Origin: Flavobacterium bernardetii
Lineage (GTDB): Bacteria > Bacteroidota > Bacteroidia > Flavobacteriales > Flavobacteriaceae
DNA length: 64,000 bases
Direction: 5' to 3'
Assembly: GCF_011305415.1 (NCBI RefSeq)
Contig: NZ_JAANOQ010000001.1
Coordinates: 186,001 to 250,000, forward strand
Both the position numbers and the translations under genes were made by a program. Of this stretch, positions 37,818-40,651 are shown one piece after another (the first letter of the stretch is position 1; the number at the start of each line of letters is the position of its first letter). Under the pieces are notes generated by a model. It had not been told where the DNA came from. It did not search any database and saw nothing but the letters and a program-made list of their open reading frames with translations.

Positions 37818-38271
37818 TTTATATTATAACGAAAGTCAGTATCCTGAAAAATTAAATATTTTTTATAGTAAGACAAATATACAGTTGGGTTTTCTTTTGT
37901 CTCTAATTTTCTTCGTTTTTGGGGTTTATCAACTTGTAAATAAAAATTATTTAGGAGCAATAATTATTTTAATTTCTTTGATTAATTTATTTTTCAATAA
38001 TAAAAAAAGGAAAAGGTTACATATTATTCTGTTGAGTATTTCAAATAAAGAAATTTACATTCGTGAAAAATATTGTTATGAATGGCAAAATGTAAGTGGT
38101 GAGAAAATTGAAATAATCCAAAATGGAGATACTTCAGTGCAATATTTAACTTTCTACTATGAGGGAAGAAAGATAAAACTTAAAACGGATGATTTAGATT
38201 TTGATAGTAAGCAATTAGAAACAGCTTTAAAAGTTTACAGAAAACGTTTTGAAAACCCTATTTCACAATAA
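37810..38271 (+). CDS. Small membrane protein of unknown function
   Basis: About 153 residues from the ATG at 37810 (MNNLYYNESQYPEKLNIFYS); a TTG at 37804 is an alternative start. Two hydrophobic helices (about 26-46 and 50-66) lead into a basic, beta-rich C-terminal domain with YCYEWQNVSGEKIEIIQNGD and FYYEGRKIKLKTDDLDFDSK. This resembles small PH-like or bacterial membrane-anchored domains. It overlaps the pseudouridine synthase by 8 bp and converges with the ABC ATPase gene. Confidence 0.68.
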   Translation: MNNLYYNESQYPEKLNIFYSKTNIQLGFLLSLIFFVFGVYQLVNKNYLGAIIILISLINLFFNNKKRKRLHIILLSISNKEIYIREKYCYEWQNVSGEKIEIIQNGDTSVQYLTFYYEGRKIKLKTDDLDFDSKQLETALKVYRKRFENPISQ

Positions 38272-39037
38272 ACTTACCATAAGTTTTATCAAAAACGATA
38301 TGTTCATCTTTAAATAAAGTATCAAAAATACCTTTTTCTATTAAATTACAAGGTTGGTCTTGAATGCAAAAATCTTCAGTCATCACAATCATTTCATCAC
38401 TTAATTGAATCGCCAAATCGATATCATGTGTCGAAAATAAGATGCATTTATTGTTTTCGTTGGCTAATTTCTTCAACAATTTAAAAACCGTCACTTTGTG
38501 AAATAAATCTAAATGAGTTGTTGGTTCATCTAAAATAATTAGCGGTGTATCTTGTGCTAAAGCTCTTGCAATCATCACTTTTTGCAATTGACCATCGCTT
38601 ATTTCGTTGTATTTTTTATATTGTAAATGACTAATATTTGTGATTTTTATCGCTTCTTCAATATGATTCAAATCGGTTTCTGTATAGTTACCCATCCAAT
38701 TCGTATAAGGATGTCGACCTAAAGCAATTAATTCCGAAACCGTTAAATTACTGGCTGGTAATTTTTCAGTCGTAACAATGCTTAAATTTTGCGCTAAAGT
38801 TTCTGGAGAATACTCCGCTATTTTTTTATCAGAAAGAAAAACTTCGCCTTCCAATGCTGGAATAATGGAAGTGATGGTTTTTAATAAAGTCGACTTACCA
38901 ATTCCGTTTCCTCCAATTAAAGTAATTAATTTTCCGGCTTCTAATTCGATGTTGATATTTGAAGCAATCTCGATTTTCCCTTTTTTAGAGGTGTATCCGA
39001 TGTTTAGATTTTCTGTTTTTAAGATGGAGGTTTTCAT
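38258..39037 (-). CDS. btuD: ABC transporter ATP-binding protein (B12/siderophore type)
   Basis: The 259-residue ATPase has Walker A GGNGIGKSTLLK, the signature ISDGQLQKVMIARALAQ, Walker B LIILDEPTTHLD and the H-loop FSTHDIDLA. It is closest to FecE/BtuD-type ATPases. It lies 585 bp after the permease gene; the gap holds the GxxExxY cassette. In the signature, SDGQ replaces the usual SGGQ. The cobalamin substrate is inferred from the adjacent cob genes. The symbol is given on that basis. Confidence 0.85.
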   Translation of the reverse strand: MKTSILKTENLNIGYTSKKGKIEIASNINIELEAGKLITLIGGNGIGKSTLLKTITSIIPALEGEVFLSDKKIAEYSPETLAQNLSIVTTEKLPASNLTVSELIALGRHPYTNWMGNYTETDLNHIEEAIKITNISHLQYKKYNEISDGQLQKVMIARALAQDTPLIILDEPTTHLDLFHKVTVFKLLKKLANENNKCILFSTHDIDLAIQLSDEMIVMTEDFCIQDQPCNLIEKGIFDTLFKDEHIVFDKTYGKFIVK

Positions 39038-39056
39038 TACTTAGTTTTTTTATTTG

Positions 39057-39608
39057 AACCACATAGGCACATAGTTATATTGAGGTTAAAGGAAGGCGCT
39101 CCGCTTTAAATAATAAACATAAGCTATTTTGGTATGTTTTTAAAATGTTCGTTAACCAAAGTTTTTTGACCTTCACGAAAAATATTATTACTATGAAAAT
39201 TTAATATTAGTCCTTTTGGAACGGATAATAATTTCATATAAGTTAATAATTGTGCATCGTGTATTGGTAAAATTTCATTTACAGCTTTTAATTCTACTAT
39301 AACCAGATCTTCTATAAATAAATCACATTTAAAATCAAAGTCTAAATCAACTCCTTTATAATTAATTGGAACTTTAAATTCTGATTTGAAATTTATCTTT
39401 CTTATTTTTAATTCTTCAATCATGCATTTGTGATACACACTTTCTAATAAACCTTTACCAAGAATTTTATGAACTTCTATTGCTGCTCCAATTATTTCAT
39501 ACGTTAATTGATTAATAGAATTTTGTGTTATCATATTTATTTTTCTATGTTTATTATTTTAAGCGAAGCGCTTTTATTTATTAAATAAATCTATGTGCCT
39601 ATGTGGTT
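39057..39608. mobile_element. 552-bp inverted-repeat cassette carrying a GxxExxY gene
   Basis: The termini AACCACATAGGCACATAG (39057-39074) and CTATGTGCCTATGTGGTT (39591-39608) are perfect 18-bp inverted repeats. Inside them AAATAATAAACATA (39108-39121) and TATGTTTATTATTT (39546-39559) form a second perfect 14-bp pair. A GC-rich AAGCGAAGCGC-like hairpin lies close to both. The only gene inside is the 136-codon GxxExxY ORF. The block sits between the permease and ATPase genes of an otherwise compact operon, which is good evidence of insertion. No target duplication or transposase is visible. Confidence 0.75.
39124..39534 (-). CDS. GxxExxY family protein (PD-(D/E)XK nuclease fold)
   Basis: The 136-residue protein has the family signature GLLESVY (residues 28-34). 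It also shows a nuclease core: Asp71 in CDLFIED, then VIVELKA with Glu81 and Lys83, and QLLTYM (Q95-Y99) like the RecB-family QxxxY motif. The nuclease activity is not proven for this family, but the triad is present. It is oriented like the ABC transporter genes and occupies almost the whole inverted-repeat cassette. Confidence 0.92.
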   Translation of the reverse strand: MITQNSINQLTYEIIGAAIEVHKILGKGLLESVYHKCMIEELKIRKINFKSEFKVPINYKGVDLDFDFKCDLFIEDLVIVELKAVNEILPIHDAQLLTYMKLLSVPKGLILNFHSNNIFREGQKTLVNEHFKNIPK

Positions 39609-39622
39609 AAAAATAATTAAAT

Positions 39623-40651
39623 TTATCTAATTCCCTTTTTTCTAATAATTAACCAAATCACAACCGGTGCGCCTAAAATAGAAGTAATCGCATTAATTGG
39701 AATAGTGAAATCTTGATTGGGCATTTGCGAAATCGTATCACAAACTAACATCGTTATTCCGCCTAAAAGCAACGTCGCTACAAAAAGTGTTTTATGCTGA
39801 CTCGTTTGAAAAATCAACTTCGCCATATGCGGAATCGCTAATCCAACAAAAGCAATTGGACCCACAAATGCGGTAATTGTTCCAGCTAAAATACTAGTAG
39901 CTATAATGCTGATATTTCGTGTTCTTTTGATTGAGATTCCTAAACTTCTCGCGTAATTTTCACCTAATAATAAACCATCTAAAGGTTTGATAATCGTAAA
40001 GCTTAAAAGTAAACCAATTAAAACTACGATAGCTAATAAGTACACTTGATTTTGGTTTAAATTACCTAAACTTCCTAAAGTCCAAAAGGTGAATTTTTGT
40101 AATTGTTCTGCACTCGAAAAAGAAGTTAACACATTGATAATTGCACTCGTTAAACTGCTAAACATCAATCCGACAATCAAAATAGACATGGTGTCTTTTA
40201 ATTTTGAAGCTACGAAGAAAACCAATAATAAAACTAAAAAACTTCCGAAGAAAGCACCAATTAAGATTCCGTAATCATTGACTAGAAAATCTGCTACAAA
40301 AGTGGGCAATAAGAAAGAACCCATAATCACAATGGCAACGCCTAAACTTGCGCCAGAACTCAAACCTAAAACATAAGGTCCAGCTAATGGATTTCTAAAA
40401 AGTGTTTGCATGATTAACCCAGAAATGCTTAGTCCAACTCCAGTTAAAATCGCAACAATTGCTTTTGGAAATCTATACTCTAAAACGATATACGTCCAAG
40501 TTTGCTTTTCATGAGATTGATGGATTAAAATTTCGCACACATCTCCTAACGGAATTAATACGTTTCCTAAAGCTAAATTCGCTAGAAAAGCTAAAATAAG
40601 AATGGTAAACAATCCAATAAATAGCGAGCTGTTTTTGAAAGTTTTTTGCAT
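39623..40651 (-). CDS. btuC: FecCD/BtuC-type ABC transporter permease
   Basis: The 342-residue protein has ten predicted membrane helices and the family signatures LANLALGNVLIPLGDV, YRFPKAIVAILTGVGLSISG, MQTLFRNPLAGPYVLGLSSG and FVGLAIPHMAKLIFQ. It would move a corrinoid or siderophore across the inner membrane. It begins at the base after the substrate-binding gene ends. The ATPase partner comes after the cassette. Confidence 0.9.
   Translation of the reverse strand: MQKTFKNSSLFIGLFTILILAFLANLALGNVLIPLGDVCEILIHQSHEKQTWTYIVLEYRFPKAIVAILTGVGLSISGLIMQTLFRNPLAGPYVLGLSSGASLGVAIVIMGSFLLPTFVADFLVNDYGILIGAFFGSFLVLLLVFFVASKLKDTMSILIVGLMFSSLTSAIINVLTSFSSAEQLQKFTFWTLGSLGNLNQNQVYLLAIVVLIGLLLSFTIIKPLDGLLLGENYARSLGISIKRTRNISIIATSILAGTITAFVGPIAFVGLAIPHMAKLIFQTSQHKTLFVATLLLGGITMLVCDTISQMPNQDFTIPINAITSILGAPVVIWLIIRKKGIR

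Follow-up and report, generated by a model that had tools for sequence, protein, structure and literature searches.

The closest described counterparts of the locus analysed here are the REPIN/RAYT systems (REPtrons), in which, according to three publications (PMC3116915, PMC8049555 and PMC8266576; the first also used deep sequencing to look for reads missing single REPINs), a gene is flanked by a repeat that also occurs as extragenic inverted doublets, repeats are more numerous where the gene is present, repeat and protein co-vary, and the gene is mostly inherited vertically. A second parallel is provided by MITEs, whose short non-autonomous copies share the ends of a gene-bearing copy, and a third by the intervening sequences (IVSs) of 23S rRNA, in which a long inverted repeat has a small ORF for the four-helix-bundle protein S23p in its loop. 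In the Coxiella IVS, PMC4990558 describes terminal inverted repeats and tandem GACAGAT heptamers before the S23p ORF; these heptamers are reminiscent of the tandem units in the cassette ends reported below.

We found likenesses to all three in a 552-bp cassette (positions 39057-39608) within a window of 64,000 nucleotides from Flavobacterium bernardetii, the window being the whole stretch of DNA that was analysed. There are also differences from each. The cassette encodes a PD-(D/E)XK nuclease, whereas REPIN/RAYT systems encode a HUH Y1 transposase, and its ends are built of tandem 6-8 nt units. Unlike MITEs and IS elements, it features no known transposase domain and no clear target duplication in the sites that were read, and its gene-bearing copy, unlike that of a MITE, is usually resident at one place. 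The IVS differs in its protein family and in its location within rRNA, and the four-helix-bundle genes of the same genus have ends that are analogous to those of the cassette, but different. With some reserve, we regard the cassette as probably the copy that carries the gene in a population of REP-like repeats, within a REPIN/RAYT-like system with an unrelated nuclease.

The cassette is bounded by AACCACATAGGCACATAG and its exact reverse complement (Table 1). The perfect 18-bp terminal inverted repeats described in the original prediction are exact, and the second perfect pair, of 14 bp, is present at 39108-39121 and 39546-39559, within inner arms of 35 nt. The flanks gave an inverted-repeat score of 76, while the highest score among 2000 dimer-block shuffles of these flanks was 31, and the spacing from the outer end to the inner CATAG recurs in relatives. 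As also proposed, the cassette splits a permease-ATPase junction, with a FecCD permease and an ABC transporter ATPase on either side, and encodes a single ORF of the GxxExxY nuclease family. The inserted unit is slightly larger than 552 bp, as most of the two adjacent AT-rich spacers is additional sequence in comparison with two relatives that have empty sites (G166 and G090).

Table 1. Features of the cassette and the flanking operon genes, numbered from the first letter of the window
Feature	Position	Strand	Remarks
Outer end, AACCACATAGGCACATAG, two direct CATAG units	39057..39074	+	motif kept in 37 orthologous elements
Outer end, exact inverted copy of 39057-39074	39591..39608	-	
Inner arm with GGCGCTCCGCTT and inner CATA site	39087..39121	.	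35 nt, 86% complementarity to 39546-39580
Inner arm partner with AAGCGAAGCGCTT	39546..39580	.	
GxxExxY protein (TIGR04256 / PF13366 PDDEXK_3), 136 aa	39124..39534	-	profile matches, model
AT-rich spacer up to ATPase ATG	39038..39056	.	mostly missing from empty sites G166, G090
AT-rich spacer after permease stop	39609..39622	.	mostly missing from empty site
FecCD permease, flanking gene	39623..40651	-	PF01032, 270.9 bits
ABC transporter ATPase, flanking gene	38258..39037	-	PF00005, 97.6 bits

The 136-aa ORF scores 135.3 bits against TIGR04256 (GxxExxY, curated cut-off 35) and 130.5 bits against PF13366 (PDDEXK_3). The profile search identified no known transposase domain in this protein, and a HUH (Y1) transposase was not found between the repeats, as the encoded protein matches TIGR04256/PF13366 only. 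The active-site residues singled out in the original prediction proved to be conserved: D71 and K83 are present in 74/74 proteins compared and E81 in 73/74 (with one codon unread), while Q95 and Y99 of the QxxxY feature are invariant in two alignments of 20 and 34 rows, where the wider-locus alignment took in 33 of 80 loci. G28, E31 and Y34 are likewise found in all 74 proteins. Values of dN/dS between 0.02 and 0.16 in 14 hand-picked pairs indicate purifying selection. A structure model (pLDDT 91.9) has its best fold match in PDB to SSO0001 (4ic1, Foldseek E 8.7e-4; superposition Z 9.2, rmsd 5.0, 100 aligned), which we take to be a Cas4, followed by weaker matches to lambda exonuclease, LHK-Exo and Hjc-type resolvases. 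Many restriction-type nucleases appeared at Z 5-8 in the PDB fold comparison and were rated as common by the tool. Cas4 acts on DNA, and PADLOC also reported a weak Cas4 match (17.7 bits). The protein is thus predicted to be a PD-(D/E)XK nuclease with a D..ExK active site, with a model that is Cas4-like. A sequence search of the PDB returned no match at E 0.1, an Rfam search returned only four sub-threshold matches, and no phage carriage was detected among 50,697 records; eight plasmid records matched, all with less than 60% identity. In the open PMC literature, we found no role for GxxExxY or PF13366, no link of either to repeats, and nothing on a four-helix-bundle protein with an inverted repeat or on the sequence CACAGAGACACAGAG.

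Some part of the operon query matched in 294 of 299 genomes from the same genus, and 70 junctions were read, which derive from the best-scoring operon matches (30 + 40 loci) and are not a random draw. The gene is present with the same ends in 37 of these junctions and absent from 32, while one (G054) retains a 28-aa remnant that was left out of the protein tree and of the 37. The gene-less junctions comprise 17 that are compact (1-37 bp), 13 of 81-130 bp, in which hairpins with other types of end are frequent, and two longer ones (226 and 459 bp). The nearest relatives by operon identity, G166 and G090, have junctions of 5 bp, and G166 carries another GxxExxY gene with CACATAG ends at a different place (L362). 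When mapped to the operon tree of the 70 genomes, the filled state requires 21 changes, at least 18 of them on well-supported branches; shuffled labels need a mean of 23.4 changes, and 101 of 500 shuffles were as low as the observed 21. Element and operon distances correlate with a rho of 0.73 across the 37 genomes (maximum of 0.43 in 999 permutations), and all 37 on-site proteins fall within one supported group of the protein tree. The gene is therefore old at this site, mostly inherited vertically, and has been lost many times. Its copy number is mostly one, at times with two or three matches per genome at E 1e-55. The original prediction of a mobile or selfish cassette consequently stands in part: the unit has its own inverted ends and both filled and empty sites exist, but the gene itself has mostly been inherited with the operon.

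This pattern bears on the proposal, made in the original prediction, that the cassette moves like a homing endonuclease, with the nuclease cutting the empty permease-ATPase junction and the cassette being copied in. The presence of the cassette at the same single site in 37 genomes, while relatives are empty there, would fit such a process, as would the element of G253, which is closer than its operon to those of G188, G115 and G032. By protein distance, the pairs G000/G222 and G253/G188 are odd, but synonymous distances single out neither of them, and in the case of G000/G222 a very long operon branch is shared by G000, G166 and G090. A claim of lateral entry at this site was dropped on these grounds, as synonymous divergence does not clearly mark the supposed transfers and the distances are mostly congruent. 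Together with the correlation between element and operon distances, and with the dispersal of the ends at many unrelated sites, this makes homing extremely improbable.

Five gene-less junctions (L145 in G150, L141 in G244, L153 in G265, L159 in G201 and L165 in G183) have hairpin ends of other GxxExxY classes (GCCACAGATT, CGCAAAG), and several of these also feature a four-helix-bundle-type half end, CTTAGNNNCTTAG. Either repeats have landed in the permease/ATPase junction more than once, or repeats of this kind are simply very common.

The motif AAACACATAGNNACATAG is kept at both ends of the 37 on-site elements while the remaining arms drift, although the right ends of G154 and G179 match it only with a 1-nt insertion. 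Left and right ends have an identity of 0.938 across these 37 elements, compared with a shuffled mean of 0.891, and none of 2000 shuffles was as high. A C at position 3 is found on both sides in 7 of the 9 elements having it, a G at position 5 is two-sided in 4 of 7, GC at positions 11-12 is two-sided in 3 of 3, and AG at the same positions is two-sided in 2 of 7 and one-sided in the other five. Beyond these elements, the CACATAG end occurs at 18 of 20 further loci of the cognate clade (seven of the 20 being on-site), on both sides in 14 and on one side in four. It was found beside none of 37 GxxExxY loci from other clades. It was also found at none of 29 GxxExxY loci (27 places, two of which were seen twice) in seven genomes that do not encode the cognate clade; these were what was left of 30 loci once L343, where no gene was found, had been dropped, while two of the 32 matches were not given as loci.

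Other clades have other ends. Classified by end type, GxxExxY clades include CACATAG, ATTAAG and CATATAAG. A sister pair has ACCATTAAG-NN-ATTAAG ends, with the same layout in other letters, and the near group has ACCATATAAG/AACATATAAG types at 14 of 20 loci, CACATAG at four and other letters at two. The ends of further clades are CGCAAAG, CTCGCAAAG, CACAGAG/CACAAAG, GCCACRGATT and others. Protein and end distances correlate (Mantel r 0.43, n=66; 0/999 permutations as high), and this was also the case after dereplication (r 0.256, n=32; 0/999 permutations as high). Each GxxExxY clade compared thus has its own end sequence within one common layout, in agreement with the expectation that the ends would co-vary with the ORF. 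The change of framing repeat from clade to clade suggests a protein that recognises its own repeat and perhaps also spreads it. The further idea that the same ends would be found beside four-helix-bundle genes was not borne out, as the CACATAG end is beside none of 30 such loci, where the ends are of the same kind but in other letters.

The end sequence is not confined to the cassette. In the F. bernardetii genome there are 22 matches at up to two mismatches, compared with two for the reversed pattern, and across the 299 genomes the count at one mismatch ranges from 0 to 218 per genome (control 0-2 per strand). Many of the listed end places are inverted pairs, and the doublets read span 115-173 bp and contain small hairpins such as GGCGTTTCACTT. 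An inner CATAG is placed 25-90 nt from the outer end, most often near 60 nt, in 24/37 left and 27/37 right halves of the elements and in 15/17 and 11/16 of those of the doublets, where 5% is expected by chance. The doublets share the internal organisation of the cassette, which therefore resembles a doublet split open in the middle. A survey of 800 kb of two chromosomes contained six doublets, two gene-sized units and 11 singlets, and of the 37 loci that were tested, some of which show the same copy, none has its end or doublet inside a frame of at least 100 aa. The original prediction had held that repeats occurring alone throughout the genome would count against a cassette. Such repeats do exist, as 20 of the 22 matches lie outside the cassette, but some of them are cassette-like inverted doublets, which points to a repeat population that is served in trans.

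Individual doublets differ between relatives. Two doublets of the F. bernardetii genome are missing in G166, G222 and G090. The first, like the cassette, is located between a stop codon and the start codon of the following gene; its flanks meet to within 1 bp in G166 and G222, and 47 bp of other DNA separate them in G090. In relatives without the second doublet, the flanks are 7-13 bp apart. A comparison of 400 kb each of G042 and G057 gave four doublets in G042, of which three could be placed in G057: one is shared, and two are missing there, another repeat occupying the site of one of the latter. Gain and loss of doublets are polarised here only by the number of relatives without the copy. 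No target-site duplication was evident at the insertion sites read (the cassette, the F. bernardetii doublets and G042/G057).

Two local arrays were also observed. At L214 (G022:C1:2696500-2698800), a near-group GxxExxY gene lies within an array of ~81-bp units that carry ACCACATAGACACATAG in the same orientation. At L215 (G132:C161:5200-6800), ten copies of the CACATAG end in one orientation are spaced at 53-57 bp, with two alternating spacers.

Repeat number is associated with the presence of the gene. The cognate clade (at least 220 bits, a line between this clade and the near group that was drawn after the scores were seen) is encoded in 57 of 299 genomes, 55 of which have three or more ends (median 33). 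At least three ends are also found in 26 of 40 genomes with the near group only (median 13) and in 78 of 202 genomes with neither (median 1). The difference between cognate and neither has a Fisher p of 1.3e-16, a value that is uncorrected for phylogeny, shared descent and genome size. However, 19 of the 202 genomes without a cognate or near-group protein at E 1e-55 contain 30-151 ends, and these orphan repeats argue against a strict need for the gene. Seven of the 19 are the genomes described above, where such ends were absent from every GxxExxY locus read. The repeats persist without the gene, and perhaps also spread without it; they can either outlast the gene or be driven in another way. 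E. coli genomes without a RAYT keep REPINs, but fewer of them, according to PMC8049555, and orphan repeats are therefore not fatal to a link between gene and repeat.

A third party, such as another transposase or replication slippage of hairpins, could alternatively spread the doublets, with the GxxExxY gene merely a passenger inside one of them. The orphan repeat populations in 19 genomes, the local tandem arrays and a protein without a known transposase domain are compatible with such a passenger, but a passenger would not need to have clade-specific end types. A RAYT as the hidden driver was also considered and rejected, as none of 15 loci with Y1_Tnp (RAYT-type) genes, in four of the five genomes searched, has CACATAG ends within 1500 nt. 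We therefore view a passenger role as decidedly unlikely. Four of the Y1_Tnp genes (L347, L351, L353 and L354) have REP-like palindromes of their own, such as CCTGCAAGGTTTTCAAAACCTTG.

The cassette transcript is predicted by RNA folding to fold far better than shuffles (z -7.5), with an 18-bp end stem. This stem, and the Coxiella IVS with its terminal inverted repeats and tandem heptamers (PMC4990558), would suit an RNA-level intervening sequence like that of S23p in 23S rRNA, in which RNase III cuts the end stem and insertion into the operon is tolerated. However, the elements described here lie between genes and not in rRNA, and the model explains tolerance but neither dispersal nor clade-specific ends, so that we judge it very improbable. 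A nuclease that serves the host, by processing repeat hairpins in mRNA or at replication forks while the repeats spread by other means, is also unlikely, though less so. It would account for the purifying selection, the long vertical residence, the position of the repeats between genes and the folding of the transcript, but a copy number between 0 and 218 and a gene that is often lost (at least 18 state changes among 70 genomes) would be odd for a host function, and the protein to which the model is most similar, the presumed Cas4, acts on DNA.

We therefore return to a REPIN/RAYT-like system with an unrelated nuclease. The gene-bearing copy would supply a nuclease that reads the tandem end units, either in folded single strands or in duplex, a recognition step that is supported by the co-variation of protein and ends. 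GxxExxY may then cut or nick at the ends, and the cut ends could release the doublet or let it be copied, in trans, into an AT-rich intergenic gap. RAYT transposases are thought to serve REPINs in a parallel manner, and a Cas4-like PD-(D/E)XK protein would here replace the HUH enzyme. As no HUH transposase is present and the Y1 genes found in these genomes are not adjacent to the repeat, the system resembles REPIN/RAYT without being a member, and there is a real chance that the GxxExxY-repeat system is a separate class. GxxExxY is a common family, to which the repeat link gives a testable job, while a class of dispersed bacterial repeats gains a candidate enzyme. If this is true, populations of REPIN-like repeats have arisen with no fewer than two unrelated nucleases, and the variety of end types would be a ready data set on how a small nuclease changes its DNA specificity.

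To extend the comparison beyond the genus, 80 GxxExxY loci were taken from one scan of a genome collection that included more Flavobacteria. Four of these loci, along with two four-helix-bundle loci, were dropped due to short flanks. Inverted arms with a score of at least 30 were found at 47 of the 76 remaining loci, compared with 2 of 62 when their outer flanks were used and 14 of 223 when flanks were paired across loci; 29 of the 76 wider loci and 11 of 38 genus loci fall below this threshold. The labels among the 47 include Alpha- and Betaproteobacteria, Chloroflexota, Nitrospinota, Planctomycetota and Ignavibacteria, although many wider records are metagenome bins, so single taxon labels may be wrong. 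The arms in these records from other phyla are of the ACCACAGAG or ACACGGAG kind. Within the genus, the cross-locus control was spoiled by related flanks for both GxxExxY and four-helix-bundle genes (scores up to 802 and 642), and outer flanks were therefore used: inverted arms are present at 27 of 38 GxxExxY loci versus 1 of 36 outer flanks, and at 21 of 28 four-helix-bundle genes versus 0 of 28. Tentatively, GxxExxY proteins could serve as the enzymes in a large class of minimal systems that spread repeats in several phyla, each clade reading its own tandem-unit end and moving inverted doublets of it in trans, and the four-helix-bundle (S23/IVS) proteins could run another class alongside it, with ends designed in the same way.

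The ends of the four-helix-bundle genes use other units, such as CTAAG, TTAGAC and CAAAG. Genes of this type (TIGR02436) are found in 60 of 61 genomes of the genus, and those at L068-L097 have tandem-unit inverted arms whose units differ between copies.
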